Shown here piece by piece: positions 11,541 to 26,548 of a stretch of 64,000 bases of DNA. Source of the stretch: Thermithiobacillus tepidarius DSM 3134 (lineage in GTDB: Bacteria > Pseudomonadota > Gammaproteobacteria > Acidithiobacillales > Thermithiobacillaceae). Numbering within the stretch: the first letter of the stretch is position 1; the number at the start of each line of letters is the position of its first letter. The stretch is taken from positions 62,001 through 126,000 of the forward strand of contig NZ_AUIS01000004.1 in the NCBI RefSeq assembly GCF_000423825.1. The letters run 5' to 3'. The notes under the pieces were generated by a model, which was not told the DNA's origin, ran no database searches, and saw only the letters and a list, made by a program, of their open reading frames with translations. Position numbers and translations under genes: made by a program.

Positions 11541-11565
11541 CACGGCCCGCGGGCCTAGGTAAATT
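11537..11565 (+). promoter_or_regulatory. Sigma-70 promoter of tRNA-Ala
   Basis: A perfect -35 TTGACA (11537-11542), a 17-base spacer and -10 TAAATT (11560-11565) are followed by a GC-rich discriminator, the form typical of stringently controlled stable-RNA promoters. The start site would be about six bases before the tRNA. The -35 overlaps the gltX stop. Confidence 0.75.
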
Positions 11566-11577
11566 ACGCCCCACATC

Positions 11578-11653
<76 letters not shown>

Positions 11654-11667
11654 AATCCCCGACATCA

Positions 11668-11698
11668 GGCTAGACGATCCGTCTAGCCTTGATTGTTT
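11668..11698 (+). terminator. Probable terminator after tRNA-Ala
   Basis: A nine-base perfect stem, GGCTAGACG (11668-11676) and CGTCTAGCC (11680-11688), with a three-base loop is followed by TTGATTGTTT. The T tract is interrupted, so termination may be partial. Confidence 0.6.
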
Positions 11699-11709
11699 AG
11701 AGGCGTCGC

Positions 11710-11868
11710 ATGGCCGGCAAGCTCCTGGTGGTTTTTGGCACGTTGCTGATCGTGGTCGGTTTCGTCTTCGGCATCGTCGACGAGTGGCAGACCAACGGCT
11801 TCATGCTGATCCCCATCGGCTTCTTCGTGCTGCTCATCGCCGCCGTCGCCAGCATGCAGAAGCCTTGA
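11710..11868 (+). CDS. Small hydrophobic two-helix membrane protein
   Basis: A 52-residue open frame between two tRNA genes. MAGKLLVVFGTLLIVVGFVF forms one membrane helix, a short polar turn (DEWQTNG) follows, and GFMLIPIGFFVLLIAAVA forms a second. A GAGG sits nine bases before the ATG. It is not a family I can name. The clean two-helix pattern with charged turn and C-terminal Lys-Pro suggests a real small membrane protein. Confidence 0.5.
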   Translation: MAGKLLVVFGTLLIVVGFVFGIVDEWQTNGFMLIPIGFFVLLIAAVASMQKP

Positions 11869-11878
11869 GCCGCCGTCC

Positions 11879-11907
11879 TTGCGCGGCCTTGGCATCTCGA
11901 ATAAACT
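11879..11907 (+). promoter_or_regulatory. Possible promoter of tRNA-Glu
   Basis: TTGCGC, a 17-base spacer and TAAACT (11902-11907) lie 15 bases upstream of tRNA-Glu, followed by a GC-rich discriminator. The -35 matches the consensus at only three positions. Confidence 0.4.
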
Positions 11908-11921
11908 AAGCGCGTTTCCGC

Positions 11922-11997
11922 GTCCCCATCGTCTAGAGGCCTAGGACACCCGCCTTTCACGCAGGTAACTGGGGTTCGAATCCCCATGGGGACGCCA
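11922..11997 (+). tRNA. tRNA-Glu (anticodon UUC)
   Basis: Acceptor GTCCCCA pairs with TGGGGAC; discriminator G and CCA are encoded at 11994-11997. The anticodon loop CTTTCAC gives UUC (glutamate). The anticodon stem CCCGC/GCAGG contains a C-A mismatch at positions 29-41, while the other four pairs are intact; this is unusual for tRNA-Glu. Confidence 0.95.
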
Positions 11998-12006
11998 CCT
12001 ACATCA

Positions 12007-12039
12007 CCCGGCTCGGACTTGCTCCGAGCCGGGTTTTTT
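12007..12039 (+). terminator. Strong Rho-independent terminator after tRNA-Glu
   Basis: An eleven-base GC-rich perfect stem, CCCGGCTCGGA (12007-12017) and its complement (12023-12033), has a five-base loop and is followed by six T residues. Confidence 0.93.
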
Positions 12040-12357
12040 ATTGGCGCCGAGCGCTGGGCGGTTGGATCGGCCAGAGGATAGCCGGTTTTGGCTCCGCGCA
12101 GGGCCGCACCCCTCTCTGGACGCAGTTCTTCTTCCTGGGAGGCGGTGTTTCGGGTTGCATGCTGCGGATGATCTGCGCACCTCGTACGCTCCAGCCTGAT
12201 ACTTTGATGCCAAGGCGATTCGCGCCGTGCTTTTATTTCAGATGTCCATCATGGGGGTGGTTGCCCATGGCAGGTGTGGCTTGAGCGGATGAATGTCCAA
12301 TCCCGACCGTGGCGCGGCTTCACGGCCAAGCGCAATCAGGGCCAATTCAATAATGCT
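12040..12357. other. Intergenic stretch without a recognisable gene
   Basis: About 320 bases between the tRNA-Glu terminator and the Fur-box promoter. Short open frames exist on the minus strand but lack ribosome sites and sensible composition. I see no repeat or RNA element here. Confidence 0.5.
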
Positions 12358-12387
12358 ATTGATAACGATTCGCATTTGTAATACTAT
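12358..12387 (+). promoter_or_regulatory. Fur-box promoter of hemP and the siderophore receptor
   Basis: The stretch ATTGATAACGATTCGCATT (12358-12376) resembles the 19-base Fur box (consensus GATAATGATAATCATTATC). It sits exactly on a good sigma-70 promoter: -35 TTGATA (12359-12364), a 17-base spacer and -10 TACTAT (12382-12387). Fur binding would block the -35, so iron-replete cells should silence hemP and probably the genes behind it. Confidence 0.75.
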
Positions 12388-12420
12388 GCCTGCCGTAGCG
12401 TATACGATTCGGGGTTTCCA

Positions 12421-12615
12421 ATGAGCAATAAGAATGCACCGGATGCCAAGCGACGCACCGGCAAAGCGTCGGAAGGGGAGCAAGCGCAACAAGGCCCACC
12501 GTGCTTGAGCACGAGCGAGCTGTTTCACGCGGCGCGGGAACTCGTCATCGAGCATCAGGGAGAGCTGTACCGCTTGCGCATTACCCGAAACGGGAAATTG
12601 ATTCTCACCAAATAA
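12421..12615 (+). CDS. hemP: Hemin uptake protein HemP family
   Basis: A 64-residue protein. The C-terminal half, STSELFHAARELVIEHQGEL followed by YRLRITRNGKLILTK, is the HemP signature (PF10636). HemP homologues are small, iron-repressed proteins usually found next to haem-uptake or siderophore receptors. Some act as positive regulators of receptor expression, though the exact mechanism varies. Here it is the first gene behind the Fur-box promoter and precedes a TonB-dependent receptor by 88 bases. No haem-degradation gene is nearby. Confidence 0.85.
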   Translation: MSNKNAPDAKRRTGKASEGEQAQQGPPCLSTSELFHAARELVIEHQGELYRLRITRNGKLILTK

Positions 12616-12703
12616 ACCGTTGCTTTAGCCAGCCATCCCGCCCCTCCTGGGCCAGGGTAGCCAGCCACTTATCAGTGCTTGCTTTGAACCAGGAGAGAGT
12701 TAC

Positions 12704-14833
12704 ATGCGGCGATCTTCCAAACGGGTCACGTTCGTGACCACCCAGCTTGCCATCGCCATTGGTCTGGCGTGCGGCGCCATCCCAGCTTACAGCCAGGACA
12801 AGGAAAGCGAGAGCGCTACGCGGAGCAAGGCCGCGGCCGCTGTCAGCGGTGGCGATGCCCAGAGCACCCGCTTGAAGGAGGTGACGGTTGCCGCCGACTG
12901 GCTCGGCGCGCCCACCGAAGAGTCCATCAAGACCTATCCCGGCGCGCGCGATGTGGTCACCGAGACCGAGCTGCATGATTCCGGCTCGCGCACCGTGGAG
13001 GACGCCCTGCGCTTGGTGCCAGGCGTGCGCACCCAGGACGAAAGCGGGGTGGGCACTCTGCCCAACATCGGCGTGCGCGGCCTCAATCCCCTGCGTAGCG
13101 AGCAGACGCTGATCCTGGTGGACGGCATCCCCATCACGCTGGCGCCCTACGGGCAGACCGGCATGTCCCTGTTTCCGCTGACCATGGAAATGGTGGAGCG
13201 CATCGACGTGGCGCGCGGCGGCGTGGCGGTGCACTACGGGCCCAACAACGTGGGCGGCGTGGTCAACTTCATCACCAGGCCCATTCCCGAGAAGTTCAGC
13301 GTCGGTGCCCGGGAGACGCTCACGATTTCGGAAAACGGTCATTTGCTGACCGACAGCTTCGCCCGTGCCGGCGGTTTCATCTCCGATCGCTTTGGCATCC
13401 AGCTCATGGCCAATCGCATCGACGGCCAATCCTTCCGGGATCATTCGGATACGAAGGTCAACAACATCATGTTGGATGCCGACTGGCTGCCTACGGACAG
13501 CACCGAGGTCAGGGGCCGGCTCCAGTACTATGATGCCGACACCGAGCTGCCCGGAGCGCTGGCGCCCACGGCCTATGATCAGGACCGCAATCAATCCACC
13601 CGCCCCTATGATTACTTCAAGGGCGACACGGTCCGCGGCAGTCTGGTTTTCAACAAAGCCTTCGCCAATCAGAGCGAGTTCAGCTGGACCAACTTCGGGC
13701 ATCGCAGCCATCGTGAGTTCGGCTTTGGCTCGCCGCTGGATTCGGCCAATCCGACGGCAGTCAGCACCTCGCCCAGGGACTATTGGGTCTTTGGCACGGA
13801 ACCGCGCTACACCTTTACCGTGAATGCCGGCGCCAAGCAGAAGATCATGCTGGGTGCGCGCTACATGCGGGAGGAGGTGGATTTCGTTGTGGACAGTCGC
13901 AGTCTGGCCAGCGGGGTGGTCACGGTCCCGCGCGACTGGCGCTTCGAGAATGATGCGATCGCGCTCTACGCCAGCGACACCTTCAGCCTGCTGGACGACC
14001 GGTTCAAGATTACCCCCGGCTTGCGCTATGAGTCAGCGAGGCTGTATTACCGCAACAATCAGACCGGTGCCGAAGACCGCAATCCCACCAATGACCTGTT
14101 GCCGGGTCTGGACATCGGCTACCAGATGAATGACCAACTCTTTGCCTTCGCCAATTATCACGAATCCCTGCGCCCGGTGCAGTTCGTCCACATCGTCTAC
14201 GAGGGGGAACTAAGCGCGGAACGTGCGAAGAACTACGAAGCGGGCGTGCGGCTGACGCCGGCCGAAGGCTTGAGCACCAGCGTCACCGCCTTCCGCATCG
14301 ACTTCAAAGACAAGATCGAGGCGGACCGTTCCGGGGGCAGCTTCCGCTTCAGCAATTTGGGCGAGGCGCGGCACCAAGGCGTGGAAACGGAGCTGGCCTG
14401 GTCGCCGGTCGCGTTGCCCGGCTTGGATCTGCGGGCCAGCTATACCTATCTCGACACGGAGCAGTTGTCCGGCACCACCGCGGGCAAGGAGCTGCCCTTT
14501 GCTTCCCGCCATCAGTTCACCACCATGGCGAACTATCGCACGGGCAGTCTGAACTGGAACGTGAACAGCTCCTATTTCAGCGCCGCCTATACCGACGCCG
14601 CGAATACCGAAGCGGAAAATGCCACGGGCTCGGTGGGCAAAATTCCCGCCTACTGGCTCTGGAACGCCCAGGTGACCAAAGGATTCCGCTGGAACAATAC
14701 GCCGATGCAGGTCGGCCTGGGCGTGAACAACATCTTCGACGAGGATTACTACTTCCGCGGCGTCGATTACAGCTTTGGCCGCATGCCCGGGCCGGGTCGT
14801 GCCTATCTGCTGAAGCTGGGCGTGAACATCTGA
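12704..14833 (+). CDS. TonB-dependent siderophore receptor (FecA/PsuA-like)
   Basis: A 709-residue outer-membrane receptor. A signal peptide covers about residues 1-30 (MRRSSKRVTFVTTQLAIAIG through AYSQ). KEVTVAADW near residue 57 is a likely TonB box. The plug domain follows (DALRLVPGVRTQDESGVG; NIGVRGLNPLRSEQTLILVD; VERIDVARGGVAVHYG), then a 22-strand barrel ending with PGPGRAYLLKLGVNI. A GGAGAG ribosome site precedes the ATG. It lacks the N-terminal signalling extension used by FecA in sigma/anti-sigma control. Its place directly ahead of a vibrioferrin-type gene set makes ferric vibrioferrin-like carboxylate siderophore the best substrate guess. Confidence 0.9.
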   Translation: MRRSSKRVTFVTTQLAIAIGLACGAIPAYSQDKESESATRSKAAAAVSGGDAQSTRLKEVTVAADWLGAPTEESIKTYPGARDVVTETELHDSGSRTVEDALRLVPGVRTQDESGVGTLPNIGVRGLNPLRSEQTLILVDGIPITLAPYGQTGMSLFPLTMEMVERIDVARGGVAVHYGPNNVGGVVNFITRPIPEKFSVGARETLTISENGHLLTDSFARAGGFISDRFGIQLMANRIDGQSFRDHSDTKVNNIMLDADWLPTDSTEVRGRLQYYDADTELPGALAPTAYDQDRNQSTRPYDYFKGDTVRGSLVFNKAFANQSEFSWTNFGHRSHREFGFGSPLDSANPTAVSTSPRDYWVFGTEPRYTFTVNAGAKQKIMLGARYMREEVDFVVDSRSLASGVVTVPRDWRFENDAIALYASDTFSLLDDRFKITPGLRYESARLYYRNNQTGAEDRNPTNDLLPGLDIGYQMNDQLFAFANYHESLRPVQFVHIVYEGELSAERAKNYEAGVRLTPAEGLSTSVTAFRIDFKDKIEADRSGGSFRFSNLGEARHQGVETELAWSPVALPGLDLRASYTYLDTEQLSGTTAGKELPFASRHQFTTMANYRTGSLNWNVNSSYFSAAYTDAANTEAENATGSVGKIPAYWLWNAQVTKGFRWNNTPMQVGLGVNNIFDEDYYFRGVDYSFGRMPGPGRAYLLKLGVNI

Positions 14834-14846
14834 TACTGGCCTCCCA

Positions 14847-14872
14847 GGGCTGGCCGGTGAGCCTGCCAGCCC
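14847..14872 (+). other. Stem-loop between receptor and siderophore biosynthesis genes
   Basis: GGGCTGGC (14847-14854) and GCCAGCCC (14865-14872) form a perfect eight-base stem with a ten-base loop and no T tract. It may stabilise the receptor mRNA end or act as a partial terminator that lowers expression of the downstream enzymes. Confidence 0.45.
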
Positions 14873-14911
14873 GTCGGAGCCGATCCGCACATGCGTTTCC
14901 AGGAGGAATCC

Positions 14912-16120
14912 ATGCAAGAATTGATTCTGATCGCGCACGTCCCGACACCCTCTGTCAATGAGGGCTTCCTGCCCGCCGCGCGTGCGCTCGGCCTGCCGGT
15001 CGTCCTGCTGACGGACCACGCCGAGGCCCACCGGCAGCACTTCAGCCAGCCCGGGTTGAATGCCTATCCCAATGAAATTCAGCCCTGCGATGTTTTCAAT
15101 CCCGTCGCCGTGATCGACGCGGTCAGCCGTCGCAAAAGGCGGCCGGCGGCGATCTTTTCCAACAGCGATCATTTGCAGACCAGCACGGCCATCGCGGCGG
15201 ACTATTTCGGCTTGCCTGGCAAGGACTGGCGCGTGTGCTACCGGGCCAAGAACAAGGCGGAAATGCGCGCGTATCTGCAATCGCAGTCCATCGATACGGT
15301 CTGGCATGCCCAAGCCTGGGATCAGGCCAGCTTGGCGCAGGTGGCGGGCGCGGTGCCTTTCCCGTGCATATTGAAGCCGCGCGAGGGCGTGGCCAGCCAG
15401 CAGGTGTTAATGGCCCATGATCGCGCGGAGCTGGAGGCGCACTGCCAGACGATATGGAAAGGGCGACCCGGTCAGGTGCTGCTGATCGAGGAGTTCCTGG
15501 ATGGACCGCTCTACACTTTGGAAACCCTGGGCAGCGGCAGGCAGATACACGTTTTGGGCGGATTTCGGGTAACGTTGTCGCCGCCGCCCCATTTCATCGA
15601 ACTGGAAGCCCGGTGGGGCACGGGGCTCGGGTGCGATGAGGAAAGGGCGGTGCTGGAACAGATCACCCGCTTCGGGGTGGGATTCGGTGCCTGCCACACG
15701 GAATTCGTCCTGACGCCGGCCGGGCCGCGCCTGATCGAGATCAATTACCGCAGCATCGGCGATCACCGCGATTTCCTGATGCAGGAGGCGCTGGGCATGT
15801 CTTACTTCGAAACCGTGCTGCGCCTGCATCTGGGCGAGTCCCTCGCGCTTGCGCAAGGTAGCAGCAAGGCCGCCGCCATCCGGTATTTTGTGGCGCAGCA
15901 GGCGGGCAAGGTAGTCAAGGCGCCGGCACCGTTTTTTCGATCCGAGCTGGAAACGCTTCTCAGTTACGTGCCGCTGCGCAGTGCCGGCGAGACCGTGTCG
16001 CTGAGCCGCTCCAACAAGGATTATCTGGGCGTCTTGCGCGGCGTAGGCAGGAGTGCGGCAGCCGTGGAGGAAGCCATGCACCGCGCCAGCGCCGACCTGC
16101 ATTGGGAGCTGCAGCCATGA
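14912..16120 (+). CDS. pvsA: ATP-grasp ligase of the vibrioferrin-type cluster (PvsA-like)
   Basis: A 402-residue ATP-grasp amide ligase. Visible landmarks are the nucleotide-binding lysine Lys155 in CILKPREGVASQQVL, the hinge-region EEFLDGPLYTLE (193-204), and metal/ATP contacts Glu264 (HTEF) and LIEINYR (274-280). AGGAGGA (14901-14907) sets the start at 14912 rather than an in-frame ATG 21 bases earlier. It heads a row of genes in the order ATP-grasp, NIS synthetase, MFS, NIS synthetase, PLP decarboxylase, which is the pvsABCDE order for vibrioferrin. In that pathway the ATP-grasp enzyme is thought to attach the alanine building block. The substrate here is inferred from context. Confidence 0.82.
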   Translation: MQELILIAHVPTPSVNEGFLPAARALGLPVVLLTDHAEAHRQHFSQPGLNAYPNEIQPCDVFNPVAVIDAVSRRKRRPAAIFSNSDHLQTSTAIAADYFGLPGKDWRVCYRAKNKAEMRAYLQSQSIDTVWHAQAWDQASLAQVAGAVPFPCILKPREGVASQQVLMAHDRAELEAHCQTIWKGRPGQVLLIEEFLDGPLYTLETLGSGRQIHVLGGFRVTLSPPPHFIELEARWGTGLGCDEERAVLEQITRFGVGFGACHTEFVLTPAGPRLIEINYRSIGDHRDFLMQEALGMSYFETVLRLHLGESLALAQGSSKAAAIRYFVAQQAGKVVKAPAPFFRSELETLLSYVPLRSAGETVSLSRSNKDYLGVLRGVGRSAAAVEEAMHRASADLHWELQP

Positions 16121-17928
16121 GGACCGCGCCAGTCATGGCCAGTCGGGATACGCATGCCGATTACATCTGCCGTCGGGTGGTGGATGCCTTGCTGCGTGAG
16201 GACGTGCGCGAGTGCGTCAGCCGGGCGCAGGTGGTGACGGGGGAAGTGGTGCCCTTTGCGTCGCGGCTTCCGCCCGCGCTGCGGGATGGGCAGTGGCTGA
16301 TGGTGACCCATCTGGGAGAGGGGCGCCTCTGGCTGCCGGTGCAGCGTTGCCGCTTCATGCAGGATTGGCGCCTGCGTGCGCTCGTGCTCATCTGGGAGCA
16401 TGGCCGCGGTCTGGAGCATCTGCAACACCTGCCCGCGATTTTGGCGCGTTTCCAGCACGGCTTGCAGCCGGAAGCGGCCCGGCGCTTCGACGACTTTGCC
16501 GCCGAATGCCTGACCGCCGTCGAGCACCGGGAAATCTGCGAGGATGCGCGGCGGCATTACGCCCGGACTTGGCAGGGGGAGGCTGGAGCGGTACACGCCC
16601 TGGACCGCCTCGACTGGTCGACGCGCATGCTGCATTACGACCGCTGGGCGGCCTTCCAGGATCATCCGTTTTATCCCACGGCACGCGCCAAGCTGGGTTT
16701 CGCGGCCGCCGATCTCGCGCATTATGCGCCGGAGTTCCAGCCCGTATTCCAACTTTGCTGGCTGGCGGTGCCGCAGGCGCTGTACGTCGGGGACATTGTG
16801 CCTGCGGAATGGTGGCCGGGCTTCGCCGATGTCGGCTTGGATCCGGCGCTTCGCAAAAGCCACGCCTTGCTGCCCGTGCATCCTTTCATGTGGGCGCGAC
16901 TGGACGGCTACCTGGCTGAAAGCGGCCTGCGCGACCGGATCATGCCGGCACCCCGCGATCATCTGGAGGTCAGTCCGACCTTGTCGGTGCGCACCGTCGT
17001 GCCTGCGGTCGCGCCGCACTGGCACCTTAAGCTTCCGCTGCCCATCCGTACCCTGGGCGCCCGGAACATCCGCACCATCAAGCCGAGTACCATCCGTGAC
17101 GGACAGGTTATGCAGGAGATCCTGGCTAGCATCGCCGCCCGGGAGCCGGCTATCGGCGACCGCCTGCTGCTCACCGATGAGGGCTTGGGCGCGCATGTGG
17201 CGCATCAAGCTTTTCTGGGCTTCATTCTGCGCCGTTATCCGGACGGTTTGGAAGACAGTCATCTGGTGCCGGTGGCAGCCCTGCCCGCCGCCGCGCCGGA
17301 CGGCCGGTTGGTCATGGCATCCTTGGCGGCACGCTTTTTCGCCGGACGCGTGCTGGATTTCTTCGATGCTTACCTTGATTTGACGCTGCGCCTGCATCTG
17401 CTGCTCTGGATACGCTACGGCATCGCCCTCGAATCCAACCAGCAGAATTCGGTGCTCGTGCTCTCGGATCGGGAGCCGCGGCTGCGTCTCCTGCTCAAGG
17501 ACAACGACGCCGGGCGCATCTGCGCAAGCATGTTCGCCGCCCGCTGCCCGGACTGGGCCCCGCGGTTAGGCCGCCTGCAGGACCGGCGCATCGTCGTGGA
17601 TAGCGCGCTGCCCCTGGCGCAGATGTTCAGCACCATCACCCTGCAGTTGAACGTGGCGGCGCTGGTGGAAAGCCTGGCGGAGGCGGGGCACGGCACACGG
17701 GAGGCACTGTACGCCCGCGTGCGCGGCAAGTTGGAAAACGTGCTGGCGGCCCTGGAGGGGCAGGGGGAGGACACGGCTCTGGCGCGCCGGGTACTGCTGG
17801 AGGACGAGCATCTGTACATCAAGTATCTGTTGCGCGCCGCCAGCCTGGAAAGCAAGGAGACTACAGGGGCGGCGGATGTGAACAAGTTCTATGGCAAGAG
17901 CGCGCCCAATTTCCTGAGGTGGTCATGA
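16117..17928 (+). CDS. pvsB: NIS siderophore synthetase, IucA/IucC family (PvsB-like)
   Basis: A 603-residue NRPS-independent siderophore synthetase that activates a carboxylate with ATP and joins it to an amine or alcohol. Family motifs include LLPVHPFMWARL with His255, then TLGARNIRTIKPST and the C-terminal FhuF-like block with ESNQQNSVLVL and RLLLKDNDAGRI. The ATG overlaps the TGA of the ATP-grasp gene; another in-frame ATG lies 18 bases on. It overlaps the following MFS gene by four bases. Position in the cluster matches PvsB. Which carboxyl group it activates cannot be read from sequence. Confidence 0.88.
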   Translation: MRTAPVMASRDTHADYICRRVVDALLREDVRECVSRAQVVTGEVVPFASRLPPALRDGQWLMVTHLGEGRLWLPVQRCRFMQDWRLRALVLIWEHGRGLEHLQHLPAILARFQHGLQPEAARRFDDFAAECLTAVEHREICEDARRHYARTWQGEAGAVHALDRLDWSTRMLHYDRWAAFQDHPFYPTARAKLGFAAADLAHYAPEFQPVFQLCWLAVPQALYVGDIVPAEWWPGFADVGLDPALRKSHALLPVHPFMWARLDGYLAESGLRDRIMPAPRDHLEVSPTLSVRTVVPAVAPHWHLKLPLPIRTLGARNIRTIKPSTIRDGQVMQEILASIAAREPAIGDRLLLTDEGLGAHVAHQAFLGFILRRYPDGLEDSHLVPVAALPAAAPDGRLVMASLAARFFAGRVLDFFDAYLDLTLRLHLLLWIRYGIALESNQQNSVLVLSDREPRLRLLLKDNDAGRICASMFAARCPDWAPRLGRLQDRRIVVDSALPLAQMFSTITLQLNVAALVESLAEAGHGTREALYARVRGKLENVLAALEGQGEDTALARRVLLEDEHLYIKYLLRAASLESKETTGAADVNKFYGKSAPNFLRWS

Positions 17929-19100
17929 CCCAGGCGCAGAGACGGGTGGTGGCCACGGTGATGCTGGGGCACTTCATTGCCGCTTTTGCCGCCTTGGGCA
18001 TGCCGCCTTTCTTTGGCCTGATCCTCAGCCAATCCCTGCACAGCGATGCCCTTTACCTGGCGGGTTGGCTGTACGTGGTACCGACCCTCGTCATGGCACT
18101 GAGCAGCCCCTGGTGGGGGCGGCTCGCGGACCGTTTCGGCAAACGGGCCCTGCTCCTGCGGGCACAGCTCGGCCTGGCGGGCAGCTTTCTCCTAGCCGGT
18201 TTTGCCGACAGCCCCGCCATGTTTTTCGCGGCGCTCGCGTTGCAGGGATTGCTCGGGGGCACCTTCGCGGCTTCCAACGCCTATCTGGCGACGGTCGTCG
18301 ACGGGTCGGCCCTGACTCGCAGCCTGACGCTGATGCAGGGCTCGGCCCGCGCCGCTTTGGTCGTGGCGCCCGTGGTGCTGGGGCTGTTCGTGGGCATGGA
18401 CTCGCCCATTGAGCTCTATCGCTATCTGGCATTGCTGCCCCTGGCGGCCGCGTTTCTGATCTGGCGCTTGCCGGAATGGACCGGCACACCGGGGGCGCAA
18501 GCCGCCGTCCGGCCAACGGGCAGTCCTGGCGAGTCCGTGGCGCCGCAGCATGTCTACGTCTTGCAGTTCGTGTTCGTGCTCGCGACGGTGATTACCTTTC
18601 CTTATTTCGTCTCCTTTGCCCAGCAGTATTTCGCCGGCTTGTCCGCGAGCATGGCCGGGCTGCTGTTCGGCTTGCCCCACCTGGTGTACCTCGTCATTGC
18701 CGCGCCGTGGAGCACTTATCTTGGGCAAAGGCGACTCGCCGCACTCGCGCTGGCATTCTTGGGACTGGCCGTCACCCTCGTTGGCCAAGTCCTGGCACAG
18801 AGTCTGTGGGGATTGGCCTTTTGGCGTGTGGCGATGGGTGTGGCCATGACCCTGGGCTTCGTCGCATTGCATGGCTTGGTGGCGTCCGTGGTGCATGCCG
18901 GCAATGCCGGCAAGACCTTCGGCTGGCTGGAAAGCGGTTCCAAGTGGGGCGCGGTGCTCGCCGGCCTGCTTGCCGGGCTGGGCGCGCAAGCACTGGATCT
19001 GCGTGCGCCGTTTCTGCTGGGAGCGGGGCTCATCGCCTCGGCTGCCGCATATCTCCTCGTCCTGAGCGTTTATCGGCACAGGACGCTGGCACCTGATTGA
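17925..19100 (+). CDS. pvsC: MFS transporter, probable siderophore exporter (PvsC-like)
   Basis: A 391-residue major-facilitator protein with about 12 membrane helices. The loop between helices 2 and 3 carries the MFS motif GRLADRFGKRALLLRAQ. Its ATG shares ATGA with the end of the preceding synthetase, and GAGGTGG serves as ribosome site; a GTG six bases upstream is an alternative. Being embedded between two NIS synthetases, as PvsC is, it most likely exports the finished siderophore across the inner membrane. A drug-efflux role cannot be excluded by sequence alone. Confidence 0.88.
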   Translation: MTQAQRRVVATVMLGHFIAAFAALGMPPFFGLILSQSLHSDALYLAGWLYVVPTLVMALSSPWWGRLADRFGKRALLLRAQLGLAGSFLLAGFADSPAMFFAALALQGLLGGTFAASNAYLATVVDGSALTRSLTLMQGSARAALVVAPVVLGLFVGMDSPIELYRYLALLPLAAAFLIWRLPEWTGTPGAQAAVRPTGSPGESVAPQHVYVLQFVFVLATVITFPYFVSFAQQYFAGLSASMAGLLFGLPHLVYLVIAAPWSTYLGQRRLAALALAFLGLAVTLVGQVLAQSLWGLAFWRVAMGVAMTLGFVALHGLVASVVHAGNAGKTFGWLESGSKWGAVLAGLLAGLGAQALDLRAPFLLGAGLIASAAAYLLVLSVYRHRTLAPD

Positions 19101-19111
19101 TGGAGGAAGGG

Positions 19112-20935
19112 ATGTCAAACACGCTGCAACGCTTCTACCAAACCCGGCTCGCCGAGGACAAGGCCGGCCAGCGTTGTCTGGAGACTCTGCTCAATTGCTA
19201 CTGCCGCGAGGTGGCCAGTCCGGAGGGGCAGGTCAGCGTCGGACCGCTGTTCGGCCAGAACGACTGGCCCCAGGCCCTGCGCGCGGCACTGCCGCGGGGA
19301 CAGGCAATGCACATCCTGCTGCCGCGCATCGATACGCGCGTGCTGGTGGTGGTGGAACGGGCTTCGCCCACGGGCAACTATCGTTATCAATCGCCATCTT
19401 ATTACAAGGCGCCCGGGCAAGCCTGGGCCCCGCTGGATTGGCAGACGCTTTCCGTGTTGCTGATCGAAGATCTTGCTTGCAGATACGAGCGGCCTTTCAA
19501 TGAAGAACTGCTGGCGCAGATCCGCGACAGCGTGGAGGTCACCACCGCCATTCTGGCTGTCCCTGCGCCCATGACCGGGAGCACTGAGCCGCTCAGCGCT
19601 TACCTGGAGTCGGAGCAATCCCTGAGTTACGGCCATCCCTTCCATCCCGCGCCCAAAAGCCGGCAGGGATTCTCCAGTGCGGATCAGCAGCGCTATTCGC
19701 CCGAGCTGCGCGCGCACTTTCCCTTGCACTATTTCGCCGTGCGTCGGGAGTATCTGGTCCAACAGTCCCTGCTGGCCGCGCCCTGCGATGCCGTGGTCGG
19801 TGCCCAGGCTCCGGCTCATCTGCACGTGCCGGCAGATTTCGCCCTGCTGCCCGTCCACCCGTGGCAAGCGCGGCATCTGCAGGCGCATCCGTTGGTCAGG
19901 AACGCTTTGCGGCAAGACCTGCTGCGCGATCTCGGCCCTCAGGGCGAGGCCTATTTCCCCACCTCGTCCATCCGTACCGTATTCCATCCGGCCAATCCTT
20001 ATTTCTATAAATTCTCGCTCCACGTGCGCGTGACCAACTGCGTGCGCAAAAACGCCCCGTACGAGCTGGAAGGCGCATTGCAGGTCACGCGCATCATGCG
20101 GGAGATCTTGCCGGACCTGGCGGGACGTTTCCCGGGGCTGCGCATCATGGAGGAGCCCGCCTATCAGTCCGTCGATCTGCGCCACCCGGATGTCCAGTGG
20201 AATAAGGAGGTCACCGAAGGTTTCGGCACAATCCTGCGGCAGGGACTGCCGGCCCTGCTGGAAGACGGCGTGACGCCGCTGCTGGCCGGCGCGCTCTTCG
20301 GCAATCATGTCATCGGCCAGGCGCGCCTCCGGTCACTCGTGCATGCCTTCGCGGCGGCGGAAGGACTGGCGCAGGAGGAGGCGTCGGAGCGATGGTTCGC
20401 CCACTATGTGGAGCAGGTGCTTCCGCCGGTGCTCTACTGCTTTTTCACGCACGGCGTGATCTTCGAGCCCCATTTGCAAAACATCCTCATCGGCCTGCGC
20501 GATCGCCGGCCGGACCAGGTCTTTCTGCGCGATTTCGAGGGGGTCAAACTCGTGCCGGAGCGTTTTCCTGCGGAGCGCCTGGAAGGCATCAGCCCACGGG
20601 CGCGGGAGGCGCTGTGGTACGCCGAGGAGCAAGGCTGGAATCGCATTGCCTATTGCCTCTTCGTCAATAACTTCTGCGAGGCCATCGATCAGCTCGCGGC
20701 GGGGCGGCCTGCCCTGGAGGCACGCTTGTGGGGCATCGTGCGCCAGCAGTTGCGCGAGTATCAGAGCCGCTACGGCAACCGCGGCTCGGCTCGCCGCCTC
20801 AATGCGTTGCTGGCGGGTCAGCCGCTGCCGGCCAAGGCCAATTTGATCAACCGCTTTTTCAAGCGGCCCGACCGCAGCGTGACCTACATATCGCTGCCCA
20901 ACCCGCTGGTCCAGGCCGAGGAGCCGCAGGCATGA
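19112..20935 (+). CDS. pvsD: NIS siderophore synthetase, IucA/IucC family (PvsD-like)
   Basis: A 607-residue second NIS synthetase. It has FALLPVHPWQARHLQ with His249, the SIRTVFHPANPYFYKFSLHV block, and the C-terminal FFTHGVIFEPHLQNILIGL and VFLRDFEGVKL motifs. GGAGGAAGG lies just before the ATG at 19112; in-frame starts at 19097 and 19100 are less well spaced. In vibrioferrin biosynthesis PvsD is thought to couple citrate with serine, whose product PvsE then decarboxylates. Its stop overlaps the decarboxylase start (ATGA). It is clearly divergent from the first synthetase, as expected for enzymes with different substrates. Confidence 0.88.
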   Translation: MSNTLQRFYQTRLAEDKAGQRCLETLLNCYCREVASPEGQVSVGPLFGQNDWPQALRAALPRGQAMHILLPRIDTRVLVVVERASPTGNYRYQSPSYYKAPGQAWAPLDWQTLSVLLIEDLACRYERPFNEELLAQIRDSVEVTTAILAVPAPMTGSTEPLSAYLESEQSLSYGHPFHPAPKSRQGFSSADQQRYSPELRAHFPLHYFAVRREYLVQQSLLAAPCDAVVGAQAPAHLHVPADFALLPVHPWQARHLQAHPLVRNALRQDLLRDLGPQGEAYFPTSSIRTVFHPANPYFYKFSLHVRVTNCVRKNAPYELEGALQVTRIMREILPDLAGRFPGLRIMEEPAYQSVDLRHPDVQWNKEVTEGFGTILRQGLPALLEDGVTPLLAGALFGNHVIGQARLRSLVHAFAAAEGLAQEEASERWFAHYVEQVLPPVLYCFFTHGVIFEPHLQNILIGLRDRRPDQVFLRDFEGVKLVPERFPAERLEGISPRAREALWYAEEQGWNRIAYCLFVNNFCEAIDQLAAGRPALEARLWGIVRQQLREYQSRYGNRGSARRLNALLAGQPLPAKANLINRFFKRPDRSVTYISLPNPLVQAEEPQA

Positions 20936-22164
20936 AGCTCGATCTTTCCCGTGTTGCGGCAGCGGCGCGGCAGGCACAGGCCGCTGCCAGCGAACCCTTC
21001 TGCGCTTATCTCTACGATCTCGCTGCCCTGCGCCGGCACGCTGCGGCACTGGCGCGCTCCCTGCCGGTGAATTGCGAGCTCTTTTACGCCATCAAGGCCA
21101 ACTCGGATCTGCCCATTCTGCAGACACTGGCGCCTTTGATGGCAGGCTTCGAAGTCGCCTCGGGTGGGGAGCTCGCCTGGGTGCGCGCCCATTTTCCAAG
21201 CATACCGGTGATCTTCGGGGGACCGGGCAAGACGGATCAGGAGCTTCGGGAGGCTTTGGCGCAGGATGTGGAGCGCCTGCACGTGGAAAGCCTGGGCGAG
21301 CTGGAGCGCTTGGCTTGGATTGCGCGCGAGCGCGGACGGACCGTGTCCGTGCTGTTGCGGATCAACCTGCCCCTGCATGATTTGCCTGAGACCACCTTGA
21401 CCATGGGCGGGCGGCCGACTCCCTTCGGCATCGACGCCGACCAAGTGCCGCAGTGTCTGGCATGGCTCAAGCAGCATCCGGAAATCCACCTGAAGGGTTT
21501 TCACTTTCATCTGTTGTCCCATCAGCTCGACGCCCGGGCCCATTTGAAGCTGCTGGAAAGCTATTTCCGCCAGGTGCGCGATTGGCAGGAGCGCCATGCG
21601 TTGACTATCGAGGAGCTCAACGTCGGCGGCGGTATCGGCATCAACTACCGGGAGCCGGACAGGCAGTTCGATTGGCCGGCCTTCACTGGCGGTCTGGCCG
21701 CGTTGGTCCGGCACTGGCGCATGGAATTCTGCCGCATCCGCTTCGAACCGGGCCGCTATGTGAGCGCCGCCTGCGGCTACTACCTCATGGAGGTGCTGGA
21801 CATCAAGGAAAATCTCGGCCGCACCTTCGTCATCGGTCGCGGCGGCACCCACCATTTCCGTACGCCCTATGCCCAGGGGCACAGTCACCCGTTCCAGGTG
21901 TTGCCGGTGGAGCGCTGGCCCTATCCCTTCCCGCGGCCCCAGGTTGCCCGGCGAGCGGTCTCGGTGGTGGGCCAGCTCTGCACGCCCAAGGACGTGCTGG
22001 CCGTGGATGTGCCCGTGGAGCAGGTGCGCGTCGGTGACCTGCTGCTTTTCCCCTATGCGGGCGCCTATGCCTGGCACATTTCCCATCACGATTTTTTGCG
22101 TCACCCACACCCCTTGCACCTGTATCTGCCCACGGAGGCGTCCTGCCATGCTGCAAACCAATAG
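20932..22164 (+). CDS. pvsE: PLP-dependent decarboxylase of siderophore biosynthesis (PvsE-like)
   Basis: A 410-residue fold-type III decarboxylase related to diaminopimelate and ornithine decarboxylases. Lys55 in FYAIKANSDLP is the PLP Schiff-base lysine. FHFHLLSHQLD, NVGGGIGI and FEPGRYVSAACGYY bind the cofactor phosphate and ring. The Cys loop at the dimer interface reads QLCTPKDVLA instead of the CESGD form of LysA, as seen in siderophore-associated members (PvsE, AcsE, SbnH type). In vibrioferrin production PvsE removes the serine carboxyl after citrylation to leave an ethanolamine unit. It overlaps the preceding gene by four bases and the next by 17. Confidence 0.87.
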   Translation: MKLDLSRVAAAARQAQAAASEPFCAYLYDLAALRRHAAALARSLPVNCELFYAIKANSDLPILQTLAPLMAGFEVASGGELAWVRAHFPSIPVIFGGPGKTDQELREALAQDVERLHVESLGELERLAWIARERGRTVSVLLRINLPLHDLPETTLTMGGRPTPFGIDADQVPQCLAWLKQHPEIHLKGFHFHLLSHQLDARAHLKLLESYFRQVRDWQERHALTIEELNVGGGIGINYREPDRQFDWPAFTGGLAALVRHWRMEFCRIRFEPGRYVSAACGYYLMEVLDIKENLGRTFVIGRGGTHHFRTPYAQGHSHPFQVLPVERWPYPFPRPQVARRAVSVVGQLCTPKDVLAVDVPVEQVRVGDLLLFPYAGAYAWHISHHDFLRHPHPLHLYLPTEASCHAANQ

Positions 22165-22933
22165 GCTCAAGGCGGCACTGGGCGAGGGGAAAACCGTCTT
22201 CGGCCTGCTGAATTCCGTGCCGTCGCCGCTCCTGGTGGAGATGCTGGGATATGCAGGCTATGACTTCGTGATCATCGACATGGAACATGTCTGCATCAAT
22301 CCGGAAACCCTGGAAAACATGGTGCGTGCCGCCGAGTGCGCCGGCATCACTCCCCTGGTGCGGGTGCCCGGCGTCATGCCCGAAGTGATTCTGCGCGTGC
22401 TGGACTCCGGCGCCCAAGGCGTGGTGGTGCCTCATGTGCGCAGCCGCGCCGAGGCCGAACAGGCGGTGCAGGCGAGCCGCTATCACCCCTGCGGGGCACG
22501 CGGCATCAGCGGCGGCCGTACCACCGGATTCGGCACCATCGATCTGCCCACCTATTTTGCGCGCGCCAACGCCGAGCTCATGGTCGTGCTCATGATCGAA
22601 GATCGTGAAGGCGTGGAGGCCATCGATGAGATCCTGTCCGTGCCGGGCGTGAATCTGGTGCTCGAAGGCGCCATCGACCTGTCTCAGTCCTACGGCGTGC
22701 CGGCTCAGGTCCAGCACCCACGGGTGCAGGCCGCCATCCAGCGTGTCGCCGATGGCTGCCGTCGTAGCGGCGTACCGTTTTGCGCCATCCCGCGCCATCC
22801 GGGCCAGTTGGAACACTGGGCTGCCCGGGGCGTGCATGCTTTCCTCCTGGGCGACGACCGCGGCGTGGCATTCCGGGCCCTGAAGGCTCACGTGGCCGGT
22901 CTCAGGCAAACGCTTCCCACTTCCGTCACATAA
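22148..22933 (+). CDS. HpcH/HpaI aldolase-family protein, SbnG/AcsB-like citrate synthase
   Basis: A 261-residue barrel protein of the HpcH/HpaI aldolase family. The expected acidic and arginine residues are present: Arg72 in LVRVPGV, Glu151 in IEDREGV and Asp177 in GAIDLSQS. SbnG (staphyloferrin B) and its AcsB-type relatives belong to this family but make citrate from oxaloacetate and acetyl-CoA for the siderophore. That role fits because the pathway beside it consumes citrate. An ordinary aldolase role is possible. The start codon lies inside the end of the decarboxylase gene, with GGAGGCG as ribosome site. The canonical Vibrio pvs operon lacks this gene as I recall it. Confidence 0.82.
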   Translation: MLQTNRLKAALGEGKTVFGLLNSVPSPLLVEMLGYAGYDFVIIDMEHVCINPETLENMVRAAECAGITPLVRVPGVMPEVILRVLDSGAQGVVVPHVRSRAEAEQAVQASRYHPCGARGISGGRTTGFGTIDLPTYFARANAELMVVLMIEDREGVEAIDEILSVPGVNLVLEGAIDLSQSYGVPAQVQHPRVQAAIQRVADGCRRSGVPFCAIPRHPGQLEHWAARGVHAFLLGDDRGVAFRALKAHVAGLRQTLPTSVT

Positions 22934-22943
22934 GGAACTCTCT

Positions 22944-23600
22944 ATGGAATCCAGCTATCTGCTTGTCAATCTGTTCATCAAGGGAGGGGCCATCATGTGG
23001 CCCCTGCTGCTGACTTCCACTCTGGCGCTCATGGTGATTCTCGAGCGTGGCTGGTTTTGGTGGACGACCCTGCGCCAGCGTGAGCCGCAACGGGTGGAGG
23101 AGGCTTTGGCCCTTCTGGAGAATGGCCAAGTGCAGGCCGCCGCCAAGGCGTTGGAGGGTTCGGAGGATTTCATCGCCCGTGCCCTGCGTCATGGTCTGAA
23201 CCATCACCACGGTTCCCTGCAGGGTGCCCTGCAGACGGCCGCCGGCGCGGAGCTTGCGCGCATGGGACGCTTCCTGCCGGTATTGGACACCATCGTCACC
23301 CTGGCACCGCTGTTGGGCTTGCTCGGCACCATCTTCGGCATCATGCACAGCTTCCAGATGATGGGGGATGCCCAGTTGGCCGAGCCGAAGGCGGTGACCG
23401 GCGGCATTGCCGAGGCGCTGATCGCCACCGGCTTTGGCCTGGCCATCGCCATCTTCAGCCTCATCCCGCTGAATTTCTTCACCACGCGTCTGCATAGAGC
23501 CCAGCACCTGCTCGAAACCTACGCCACCCATGTCGAGGTCCTGTACCAAGGGCGCCAAGCCCAGCAGCATGCCTCGTCCGCTCGCTCCATTTCCGCCTGA
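22944..23600 (+). CDS. exbB: ExbB/TolQ/MotA-family proton channel subunit
   Basis: A 218-residue inner-membrane protein with three expected helices: near residues 15-35 (IMWPLLLTSTLALMVILERG), around 105-130 (LDTIVTLAPLLGLLGTIFGI) and around 150-170 (EALIATGFGLAIAIFSLIPL). These match ExbB, which with ExbD harvests the proton gradient to energise TonB. AAGGA lies before the ATG. It follows the aldolase gene by 10 bases and is followed by exbD and tonB, so the siderophore operon encodes its own energising complex. Confidence 0.93.
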   Translation: MESSYLLVNLFIKGGAIMWPLLLTSTLALMVILERGWFWWTTLRQREPQRVEEALALLENGQVQAAAKALEGSEDFIARALRHGLNHHHGSLQGALQTAAGAELARMGRFLPVLDTIVTLAPLLGLLGTIFGIMHSFQMMGDAQLAEPKAVTGGIAEALIATGFGLAIAIFSLIPLNFFTTRLHRAQHLLETYATHVEVLYQGRQAQQHASSARSISA

Positions 23601-23607
23601 GGCGCCG

Positions 23608-24024
23608 ATGAAGCTATCCACGCCCTATCCGCCGAAAAAGCCGCGCATCGAGCTGATTCCGCTCATCGACGTCATGTTCTTCCTGCTGGCGTCCTTCATC
23701 TTCGTGTCACTGAGCATGGTGCAGCACCGGGGCATCCGGGTGGATGTGCCCCAGGCCGCGGCCAGCCAGCCGGATCGCCACGATTACTTCGCCATCAGCC
23801 TGACTGCGGACGGCAAGCTCTACGCCAACAAGCGGCTGGTATCCGAGCAGGAGCTGCGCCGGGAGCTGGCCGCTCTGCTGGGCCGTGAGAAGGAGCCGCG
23901 GGTCTATATCAATGCCGACCGGCGCGTGCCGCATGGCGAGGTCATCGCCGTGCTCGATCTGGCTCGCCGCACGGGGATCAATAAGATCGCCTTCGAAACC
24001 AAGCCGGTGCAGGTCGGGCCATGA
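23608..24024 (+). CDS. exbD: ExbD/TolR-family protein
   Basis: A 138-residue protein with a single N-terminal helix, IELIPLIDVMFFLLASFIFV, holding the proton-carrying Asp of ExbD (LIDVMFFLL). The periplasmic domain follows (YFAISLTADGKLYANKRLVS; RVYINADRRVPHGEVIAVLD). Length is normal. The ATG lies seven bases after the exbB stop and the gene overlaps tonB by four bases. Confidence 0.93.
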   Translation: MKLSTPYPPKKPRIELIPLIDVMFFLLASFIFVSLSMVQHRGIRVDVPQAAASQPDRHDYFAISLTADGKLYANKRLVSEQELRRELAALLGREKEPRVYINADRRVPHGEVIAVLDLARRTGINKIAFETKPVQVGP

Positions 24025-24785
24025 GGGACTGGCGCGAAGCACGACAGTCATCCTGGGTGGGGCTGGGGGTGGCCGCGGCGGCCGCTGTCGGGCTGCAGCT
24101 TGCCTTGGTCCTGATTTTTCCCGAACCCCCGCCGCGGCTGCAGGTGCGGCCCCAGGACCCCATTGAGGTGGAGCTCGTGGTGCCGCCGATGGCGGTCCGA
24201 TCCGAAACGCAGCCAAGCACGCCCGCGCCGGAACCGCAAGCCAGCACACCACCCCCGAAAGCGGCACCTGCATCTCCGGCTCCGGGAACGCAGGCCAGTG
24301 CGCGCGCGCCAACGCCACAGGCGGAGCCGCAGCCTCCGATGCCAGCCAGTGAAGCACCGCCCCCATCGGCGCCAGCGGCAATGCAGCCAGTGCCGGCGAC
24401 TCCGCCGCAGGCGCGGACGGAGGCTTCGCCAGCCGAAACAGCACCCAGGGAGGTACGCCATGCGGCGCCTGCGCCCGCTGCACCCCAGCGTCCCGCAGGC
24501 AATACCCTCGTCGCGGCCAGGCCCGATTATCTGAGCAATCCGCCGCCCGCCTATCCGGCGCTGGCGCGCCGTCGGGGCTGGGCCGGGACCGTCCTCTTGA
24601 AAGTGCGGGTGTCCGCCAGCGGCGTGGCGCGGGAGGTGCAGCTGCTGAAAGGCTCGGGGCACGAGGTGCTGGATCAGGCCGCCCGGCAGGCGGTGGAGGG
24701 CTGGCGCTTCATCCCCGCCAAGCAAAACGGCGAGCCGGTGGAGTCTTGGGTCGAGGTGCCCGTGCGCTTCGAACTTGCGTCCTGA
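24021..24785 (+). CDS. tonB: TonB energy-transducing protein
   Basis: A 254-residue protein. One membrane helix lies near residues 11-31 (SWVGLGVAAAAAVGLQLALV), followed by a proline/alanine-rich periplasmic spacer to about 165, then a C-terminal TonB domain with SNPPPAYPALARRRGWAGTV, LLKVRVSASGVAREVQLLKG and the ending VEVPVRFELAS. It spans the periplasm to contact the TonB box of outer-membrane receptors. The linked receptor at 12704-14833 is the obvious partner, though it may serve other receptors. Confidence 0.93.
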   Translation: MRDWREARQSSWVGLGVAAAAAVGLQLALVLIFPEPPPRLQVRPQDPIEVELVVPPMAVRSETQPSTPAPEPQASTPPPKAAPASPAPGTQASARAPTPQAEPQPPMPASEAPPPSAPAAMQPVPATPPQARTEASPAETAPREVRHAAPAPAAPQRPAGNTLVAARPDYLSNPPPAYPALARRRGWAGTVLLKVRVSASGVAREVQLLKGSGHEVLDQAARQAVEGWRFIPAKQNGEPVESWVEVPVRFELAS

Positions 24786-24788
24786 AAA

Positions 24789-25784
24789 ATGCCCAAGCGC
24801 GTCCTCTTCAAAATTCATGTCTATGCCGGCACGGTGTTGAGCCTGCCTTTGTTCGTCATTGCCCTGACGGGCATCGTCCTGGGTTTTTACGACCCGCTAC
24901 GGTATGCCGGGCCACCCTATGGCCTGGAAACAGCGGCGAGCAGACCGCTCCCGCCGGCTGCCTTGGCTGAGCGGGTACGGGCGGCGTACCCGCACCTCTC
25001 GCTGGAGGTTCTGTACCTGCCCACAGATCCCGGACGTGCGGCACGGGCCAAGCTCGTGGGTGAAGACAAGCCCGTGCTGGCCTTTCTCGATCCGCTCTCG
25101 GGAAAGACGCTGGCTGAGCAGGATCCGGCCGAGGAGGACTGGCTCCAGTTCCTGTACCACCTCCACCGGGGCCAGCCGCTGGGACTGGCCGGCCAGATCA
25201 TGGCCAGCGCCACCGGCGTCCTGATTCTGTTGCTGTGGCTGGCGGGACTGTGGCTGTGGTGGCCGAAGCGGCATGTGGCGAGGCCGTGGAAGGCGGGCAG
25301 CCCGCGCGCAAGGCTGCTCGGTTTGCACCGCTGGCTCGGCCTATGGCTGGGGGGACTGCTGGTGCTGCTTGCGCTTGCCGGCGCGCTGTTGAATTTCGCC
25401 GGGCCGCTGGGCAAGGCTTTCAATCCCCCGCCGCGGGCGGAAGCAGTCGAGCAGTCATCCCTGTTGCCGCTGGCGCATATCGTCGCGCGGGCCGAGCGGG
25501 CCTATCCTGCCGCACCCGTGGAGCGCATTTATTTCCCCAAAGCGGGCGGCGCGCTGTGGCAGTTTCGCTTTCGGGACGGCGGCCGCGTCTTCGTGTCCGC
25601 GGCCAGCGGCCAGGTGCTCAAGGTGGACACACCGTTTTCGCACTGGACCAGCCTCTTATACCCCTTGCACAGCGGCCGCGTTTTCGGAGAGAACGGGCCC
25701 AGGCTCATTGCCATCCTGGGGCTTGGGCTGCTGGCGTCGGGCGTGAGCGGCTTGGCGTTCTGGCGCCGTATCCCGCGGAAATGA
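24789..25784 (+). CDS. PepSY-domain membrane protein, possible siderophore-iron reductase
   Basis: A 331-residue protein with a helix at about 12-34 (VLSLPLFVIALTGIVLGFYD), periplasmic PepSY-type segments, paired helices in the middle (ASATGVLILLLWLAGLWLWW; RWLGLWLGGLLVLLALAGAL) and a last helix near the C-terminus. Conserved histidines flank helices (KIHVYAG, YHLHRGQP, LHRWLGLW, YPLHSGRV), as in PepSY membrane proteins such as FsrB/FoxB/PiuB linked to siderophore genes, some of which reduce ferric siderophore iron. It starts four bases after tonB and is the last gene of the run. The cluster contains no inner-membrane siderophore permease, which favours a periplasmic reduction role. Confidence 0.82.
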   Translation: MPKRVLFKIHVYAGTVLSLPLFVIALTGIVLGFYDPLRYAGPPYGLETAASRPLPPAALAERVRAAYPHLSLEVLYLPTDPGRAARAKLVGEDKPVLAFLDPLSGKTLAEQDPAEEDWLQFLYHLHRGQPLGLAGQIMASATGVLILLLWLAGLWLWWPKRHVARPWKAGSPRARLLGLHRWLGLWLGGLLVLLALAGALLNFAGPLGKAFNPPPRAEAVEQSSLLPLAHIVARAERAYPAAPVERIYFPKAGGALWQFRFRDGGRVFVSAASGQVLKVDTPFSHWTSLLYPLHSGRVFGENGPRLIAILGLGLLASGVSGLAFWRRIPRK

Positions 25785-25806
25785 AAAATGGGCCTTGCGG
25801 CCCATG
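25785..25806 (-). terminator. Terminator between the PepSY gene and bfr
   Basis: ATGGGCC (25788-25794) and GGCCCAT (25799-25805) form a stem with a four-base loop. On the minus strand it is followed by TTTTCATTT, so it mainly serves bfr; it may also slow transcription from the other side. Confidence 0.65.
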
Positions 25807-25817
25807 GGAGAAGAAAA

Positions 25818-26282
25818 TCACATTTGGGATTGCAGATAATTTTGTATGCCCACCTTTTGGACGAGTTCCAATTGGATTTCCAACCAGTCGATGTGTTCCT
25901 CGGTATCCTTGAGCAGGCCCTGCAAGAGATCCTTGCTGACCTCGTCACCCTGAGTGCGGCAGTACTGGAGCGCCTCCAGCAGCAGAGGACGGTCGCTCAG
26001 CTCCAGCTGCAGGTCGAGGCGGAGTTGCTCTTCCACGTTTTCACCGACGTTGATCTTGTGCAGGTCCTGCAGGTTGGGGATGCCTTCCAGGAAGAGAATG
26101 CGATCCATCAGCCGCTCCGCGTGGCGCATCTCTTCGATGCTCTCCTTGCGTACGATCTCCGCCAATTTCTTGAAGCCCCAGTTTTCCTGCATTTTCGCAT
26201 GCATGAAGTACTGGTTGATGGCAGTGAGTTCGTAGGTAAGCGCCCGGTTGAGATAATCGATGACCTGCTTGTCGCCTTGCAT
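25818..26282 (-). CDS. bfr: Bacterioferritin
   Basis: A 154-residue haem-containing iron-storage protein that forms 24-mer cages. Ferroxidase ligands are seen at Glu18 ([10 protein letters not shown]), Glu51 and His54, with haem-ligand Met52 in [11 protein letters not shown]; Glu94, Glu127 and His130 follow in the later helices ([20 protein letters not shown]). The start [15 protein letters not shown] follows GGGGGTA at a suitable distance; the longer open frame upstream lacks family similarity. It lies convergent to the siderophore operon, so iron uptake and storage genes are neighbours. No obvious Fur box is seen in its upstream region. Confidence 0.95.
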
Positions 26283-26548
26283 GGTATACCCCCGTGGCAA
26301 TTGTTTTTCTTCCAGCCAATAGCATAGCACGATGGGCATGGTCGGCCTATGGCTGGCACAAGCCATTCGCAGATTGCCTTATGGAGTCCAACGAACTGGA
26401 TGTCTGTGTGTTGCAATCCGTGTTCCCGGATGAGCCGCGACAAACATTAATTTTGTTCATTTATTGTTTGAAAAATTTGAATTTGATTAATCATTGCTGG
26501 GACTTGAAGCTATGTCTATATCTGTATCCATGTTCTAAGGAGATCGGC
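26283..26548. promoter_or_regulatory. Divergent control region between bfr and metE
   Basis: 266 bases with an AT-rich core at about 26440-26505, clearly different from the GC-rich surroundings, as expected for promoters. AAGGAG (26537-26542) is the metE ribosome site. I could not assign a SAM or cobalamin riboswitch, and no clean MetJ or MetR site is evident. Confidence 0.4.

Follow-up and report, generated by a model that had tools for sequence, protein, structure and literature searches.

A vibrioferrin-type siderophore gene cluster with a predicted SbnG-type citrate synthase in Thermithiobacillus tepidarius

Closest described systems and gene order

SbnG, known from staphyloferrin B loci, has been reported to form citrate from oxaloacetate and acetyl-CoA (PMC7139808), and in iron-deprived Staphylococcus aureus lacking the ordinary synthase it is described as sustaining the citrate pool (PMC11315280). 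AcsD, of the achromobactin system, is reported to join citrate to L-serine by esterification, with R305, E442, H444, R501 and K563 as key residues (PMC3323832); AcsE-type decarboxylases then yield citryl-ethanolamine (PMC7857480), and acsB has been named as an 'aldolase' (PMC8907978). The gene cluster described here, from Thermithiobacillus tepidarius DSM 3134, contains pvsA-B-C-D-E-type genes followed by a gene of the HpcH/HpaI fold family, all on one strand with mostly overlapping ends. It was found by open reading frame analysis at 14912-22933 of a 64,000-nucleotide stretch (contig NZ_AUIS01000004.1, positions 62,001 to 126,000; termed the window) of a 43-contig genome assembly totalling 2,958,498 bases. 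The cluster probably belongs to a single transcription unit under iron control that covers synthesis, export and uptake of a citrate siderophore of the vibrioferrin type and includes an enzyme to make the citrate. The biosynthetic genes and the adjoining receptor gene are as follows.

12704-14833, + strand: TonB-dependent siderophore receptor, FecA/PvuA-like (Pfam, NCBIfam)
14912-16120, + strand: pvsA, ATP-grasp ligase (Pfam ATP-grasp match weak, near the cut-off)
16117-17928, + strand: pvsB, nonribosomal peptide synthetase-independent siderophore (NIS) synthetase (Pfam IucA_IucC and FhuF; start inferred)
17925-19100, + strand: pvsC, major facilitator superfamily (MFS) exporter (Pfam MFS_1)
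19112-20935, + strand: pvsD, NIS synthetase, AcsD-like (Pfam IucA_IucC and FhuF)
20932-22164, + strand: pvsE, pyridoxal phosphate (PLP)-dependent decarboxylase (Pfam Orn/DAP/Arg decarboxylase)
22148-22933, + strand: predicted sbnG-type citrate synthase, HpcH/HpaI fold family (Pfam HpcH_HpaI)

The frame of pvsB is open from a TTG at 16102, and its likely start is the ATG at 16117, overlapping the pvsA stop by 4 bases. An initial annotation of the window had equated the order ATP-grasp, NIS synthetase, MFS, NIS synthetase and PLP decarboxylase with pvsABCDE and had noted a 17-base overlap of the HpcH/HpaI gene with pvsE; the first was confirmed by the frames and by Pfam for each gene, and the overlap is exactly 17 bases (22148-22164).

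The Vibrio pvuA-pvsABCDE operons resemble the window in the five biosynthetic genes, their order, the synthetase clades and the receptor type, but all 11 examined are without an SbnG-type gene, whereas the window has one after pvsE, followed by exbB-exbD-tonB. The staphyloferrin B locus (sbn) shares an SbnG-clade citrate synthase with the window and differs in having three NIS synthetases together with sbnA and sbnB, where the window has two NIS synthetases, an ATP-grasp ligase instead and neither sbnA nor sbnB in the operon. The achromobactin locus (acs) shares the AcsD-type synthetase, the PLP decarboxylase and the SbnG/AcsB-type gene; its third NIS synthetase and diaminobutyrate aminotransferase are both absent from the window operon, which has PvsA. 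A cluster on plasmid pHG1 of Cupriavidus necator H16 has a receptor, ATP-grasp, NIS, MFS, NIS, PLP enzyme and aldolase/citrate lyase-family gene in the window's order, and its last protein is 73% identical to the sixth protein of the window. It differs in its overlap of 14 rather than 17 bases, a receptor of another type (48 bits), generic annotation only and, unlike the window, no exbB, exbD or tonB match within the fetched stretch.

The sixth protein and the siderophore synthetases

Among all solved chains, the best match of the sixth protein was S. aureus SbnG (4tv5; 250.6 bits, E 1.6e-73, residues 1-254, gap-free), and the next non-SbnG match, an aldolase, scored 126.2 bits. In a tree of 34 proteins, from which the SbnG of locus L008 (broken frame) was left out, the protein fell inside an SbnG clade of 30 with support of 100/99; the clade holds SbnG and the achromobactin-type and staphyloferrin B-type copies, and the three solved aldolases lie outside it. 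Residues found in at least 90% of the SbnG family and in 0/3 aldolases are present at S23, P25, M149, A175, F211, C212, A213, P215, R216 and R238, and include the signature motif F211-C-A-x-P-R216 (FCAxPR). H47, R72, E151 and D177, which are common with the aldolases and which we take to be the metal and catalytic residues, are also kept; in the alignments, chains 4tv5 and 4tv6 differ from each other at E151. The clade and signature residues bear out the SbnG/AcsB-type assignment made at first annotation, and they rule out a generic aldolase identity. The sixth gene very likely makes citrate for the siderophore; most simply, it would provide the operon with a further source of citrate.

The synthetases were placed in a tree of 36 NIS synthetases, which has long branches and in which achromobactin and staphyloferrin B sequences were labelled by gene content. 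The window PvsB lies in a starred clade (99) with all 12 PvsB sequences, including those of Vibrio, apart from all staphyloferrin B and achromobactin sequences. The window PvsD lies in a starred clade (95) of 14 with PvsD and AcsD sequences, the inner order of which is unresolved, apart from the staphyloferrin B sequences. Among solved structures it matches AcsD best (312 bits), and all five key AcsD residues are kept (R312, E452, H454, R511 and K575, corresponding to R305, E442, H444, R501 and K563). The genome holds no IucA_IucC gene beyond these two. Phylogeny had been set beforehand as a test that could overturn the vibrioferrin-type reading; with PvsB grouping with Vibrio PvsB, PvsD with PvsD and AcsD, and no third IucA_IucC gene, the outcome favours the vibrioferrin type. 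A staphyloferrin B locus type was rejected on its two NIS synthetases, the lack of SbnA and SbnB among the operon proteins and synthetases outside its clades; an achromobactin locus type was rejected on the lack of three NIS synthetases and of an aminotransferase, and on the separate position of PvsB.

Distribution and origin of the six-gene form

Scanning named genomes for the sixth protein gave 11 loci, a sample biased towards the sixth gene; ten of them have an entire pvsABCDE with the gene at its end (Methylococcaceae, three Methylobacter, Methylomonas, Thiogranum, Methylosinus, Reyranella, Marinobacterium and Halomonas). The arrangement is beyond chance, because all six genes keep their order in 10 of these 11 loci. 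The cassette also occurs on pHG1 and on two Rhodococcus plasmids. An unbiased sample was obtained by profile searches with PvsA or PvsB (5/369, 5/398, 6/200, 3/201 and 11/99 pvs genomes per search, with overlaps), yielding 25 distinct pvs-bearing genomes; 13 further weak hits in the 369-genome search had no pvs neighbours in short loci. An sbnG-type gene is present in 11 of the 25, and the 14 without one are 11 Vibrio and three members of one family that includes Piscirickettsia. None was seen within the fetched stretch of three actinobacterial pvs plasmids (Streptomyces, Embleya, Nonomuraea).

With a profile of the sixth protein, only two of the 369 class genomes (G000 and G026) passed 1e-65, and in the family of G704 the profile found 6/150 genomes, with five copies in pvs clusters and one in a staphyloferrin B-like cluster. 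A plasmid search with the citrate synthase gave 753 records; among the best 40 of 753, eight were examined (three pvs, two achromobactin-like, one staphyloferrin B-like, two without synthetases), and most matches among those 40 were weaker and generic. With PvsB, 9 of 12 plasmid records were examined (H42, H47 and H48 left out). In the 23 pvs clusters with an sbnG-type gene besides the window, the pvsE-sbnG overlap is 17 bases in seven, 14 in eight and 1 in four; in two (Rhodococcus) the genes are separated by 13 bases, in one (Pantoea) sbnG lies at the opposite end of the cluster, and one is unmeasurable owing to a broken frame. The overlap kept in relatives fits translational coupling. The six-gene arrangement is thus widespread and not unique, and to call it a hybrid, as had been done, was an overstatement: it recurs in three proteobacterial families in the unbiased sample, in methanotrophs and in Rhodococcus. 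No paper linking SbnG-type genes with vibrioferrin was found in the literature searched, which left out most subscription journals.

On a joined PvsA, PvsB, PvsD and PvsE tree of 41 clusters (L046 left out; L061 and L067 dropped as duplicates of L047 and L014), the presence of sbnG needs 4 changes, and 13.3 are expected by shuffling. The SbnG tree puts the Rhodococcus copies with a staphyloferrin B copy from an actinobacterium and the Pantoea copy with an orphan one. Grouping all pvs-linked SbnG copies together was rejected (p 1.3e-7; L015 and 3qz6 left out of these tests), as it was without Rhodococcus (p 4.3e-4) and, weakly, without Pantoea as well (p 0.04). As far as the models go, sbnG-type genes would therefore have joined pvs operons at least twice; gain and loss within the Proteobacteria are indistinguishable with these data. 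We lean towards the view that sbnG-type synthases were added to vibrioferrin operons repeatedly and are standard in many non-Vibrio lineages, with the five-gene form one of two main forms, and that in T. tepidarius an own citrate supply is coupled in translation to PvsE.

Some loci depart from the common arrangement. In Pantoea soli a divergent sbnG-type gene (L017, 9953-10720) precedes pvsA rather than following pvsE, which points to separate recruitment. Plasmid SbnG-type genes without synthetases were seen in Acinetobacter soli (L019, 9082-9750) and Pseudomonas mandelii (L020, 9082-9762), where they adjoin a siderophore receptor that is complete in the former and truncated in the latter; they are probably relics or citrate-only systems. 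The sbnG-type gene of a Thiogranum metagenome assembly (L008, 10001-10759) is split into two frames by a real break or an assembly error. In one pvs cluster (L046, genome G320) the frames of the receptor, pvsA, pvsB and pvsC are broken and no SbnG was seen; it is perhaps a decaying siderophore locus.

Extent of the unit, predicted pathway and alternatives

The siderophore unit is larger than six genes and consists of hemP, the receptor, pvsABCDE, sbnG, exbB-exbD-tonB and a PepSY gene at 12.35-25.8 kb. A genome of the same family (G026) has the receptor, pvsABCDE, sbnG, exbB, exbD, tonB and PepSY genes in identical order, with a hemP-like frame upstream. The remaining features of the unit are as follows.

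12349-12387, + strand: Fur-like site (overlapping matches of 12-13/19 at 12349, 12355 and 12361) over a sigma-70-like promoter (12359-12387); neither is significant alone
12421-12615, + strand: hemP-like small protein of 64 amino acids, first gene of the unit (PF10636, 66.7 bits; G026 counterpart upstream of the receptor)
22944-23600, + strand: exbB (Pfam)
23608-24024, + strand: exbD (Pfam)
24021-24785, + strand: tonB (Pfam)
24789-25784, + strand: PepSY_TM protein, probable final gene of the unit (PF03929; same place in G026)
25788-25805, strand not assigned: terminator-like hairpin separating the unit from a convergent bacterioferritin gene (11 such in the region, 10.8 expected)

Fur regulation of the unit is likely. 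Two of the three Fur-like matches of at least 13/19 in the window lie near 12.36 kb (about 0.5 expected per window by shuffling), and the sigma-70-like match is the only one in 12000-26400 (2.3 expected by chance); neither the promoter scan nor the terminator scan exceeds chance. Similar Fur-like matches lie 347-353 bases upstream of the aligned receptor start in G026, and an 18/19 match is present in locus L005. The genome contains two Fur-family genes.

In the predicted pathway, iron shortage would release Fur from the promoter near 12.36 kb, and the SbnG-type protein would condense oxaloacetate and acetyl-CoA to citrate, which PvsD would join to L-serine. PvsE would decarboxylate the citrate-serine product to citryl-ethanolamine, and PvsB and the ATP-grasp PvsA would add the 2-oxoglutarate and alanine side, roles that we assume for these two enzymes. 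PvsC would export the siderophore, and the receptor with ExbB-ExbD-TonB would return the ferric form. The gene overlaps may couple translation, so that the citrate-making enzyme would be made in step with the rest. Several points weigh against this proposal. With one ordinary citrate synthase in the genome, a second is not obligatory, and the 11 Vibrio and three Piscirickettsia-family pvs clusters lacking sbnG imply that vibrioferrin can be made without SbnG. PvsA and PvsB differ enough from those of Vibrio to make a modified product possible. The Fur-like site and promoter do not stand out from a few matches per window arising by chance, and no Fur-like site was found in L006, in L012 (only 206 bases available) or upstream of pHG1 pvsA, among others.

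The product might be a vibrioferrin relative that has the same citrate-serine core but carries a different amino or keto acid on its PvsA/PvsB side. The window PvsB scores 378-404 bits against the 11 Vibrio operons and 635-695 bits against the unbroken methylotroph and Cupriavidus-family ones tested (one exception, 634), and the long branches of the synthetase tree point the same way; the five genes, their order and the PvsB and PvsD clades are nevertheless those of Vibrio, and we regard such a relative as possible but unlikely. It is a good deal less probable that the SbnG-type enzyme uses some other acyl-CoA or keto acid and forms a citrate homologue or another hydroxy tricarboxylate. Sequence can check the general active site only, and the HpcH/HpaI family is catalytically versatile, but all checked SbnG-specific residues are kept, the alignment to SbnG is gap-free over 254 residues, and PvsD keeps the AcsD residue set.

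Citrate itself serves as an iron carrier in Photobacterium damselae according to one report (PMC5550697), and the best NCBIfam model of the window receptor is FecA (427 bits, below the cut-off of 1100). That the sixth enzyme mainly makes citrate for secretion as the carrier, with a FecA-like receptor, is nonetheless very improbable in view of the complete synthetase set in the unit and the same receptor type beside the 11 Vibrio pvs operons (573-583 bits). The sixth protein can scarcely be a sugar-acid or aromatic-pathway aldolase lying behind pvsE by chance. Pfam assigns it to HpcH_HpaI only and its best NCBIfam model is GarL (149.6, below the cut-off of 406.75), but this identity was already disfavoured by the SbnG tree and signature residues, the pvsE overlap is conserved across families, and the siderophore unit has no catabolic neighbours.

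The preferred reading, a vibrioferrin-type product with its own citrate supply, also has to be set against the host. T. tepidarius, a sulfur-oxidising obligate autotroph, is described as having a biosynthetic horseshoe instead of a Krebs cycle, in a genome paper whose main text does not contain the word "siderophore" (PMC5037610). The dedicated citrate supply under iron limitation that was first proposed is suggested by the SbnG-type identity and operon position; the accompanying idea that it frees the pathway from the tricarboxylic acid cycle would have to be put differently for this host, since by that paper it has no Krebs cycle and SbnG would still draw on oxaloacetate and acetyl-CoA. T. 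tepidarius is reported to grow near pH 7, and the sister family to be acidophilic (PMC8528912). No pvsA match was found in the 29 same-order genomes outside the family of the host. This absence would agree with a scarcity of iron that arises at neutral pH only. The findings would add a third siderophore class to staphyloferrin B and achromobactin as systems with SbnG-type citrate synthases, with dedicated citrate supply as a repeated solution, and they predict a vibrioferrin-type siderophore in Thermithiobacillus, C. necator H16 (pHG1) and methanotrophs. The findings also provide genetically tractable hosts for asking what leads some producers, but not Vibrio, to have a dedicated citrate synthase.

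Over 11500-26400, Rfam returned two tRNAs only. HemP is usually met with haem uptake, and here the hemP-like gene (12421-12615) heads the siderophore unit, ahead of the receptor. At the other end, a bacterioferritin gene on the - strand (25818-26291; TIGR00754, 221 bits, cut-off 125.55) converges on the unit.

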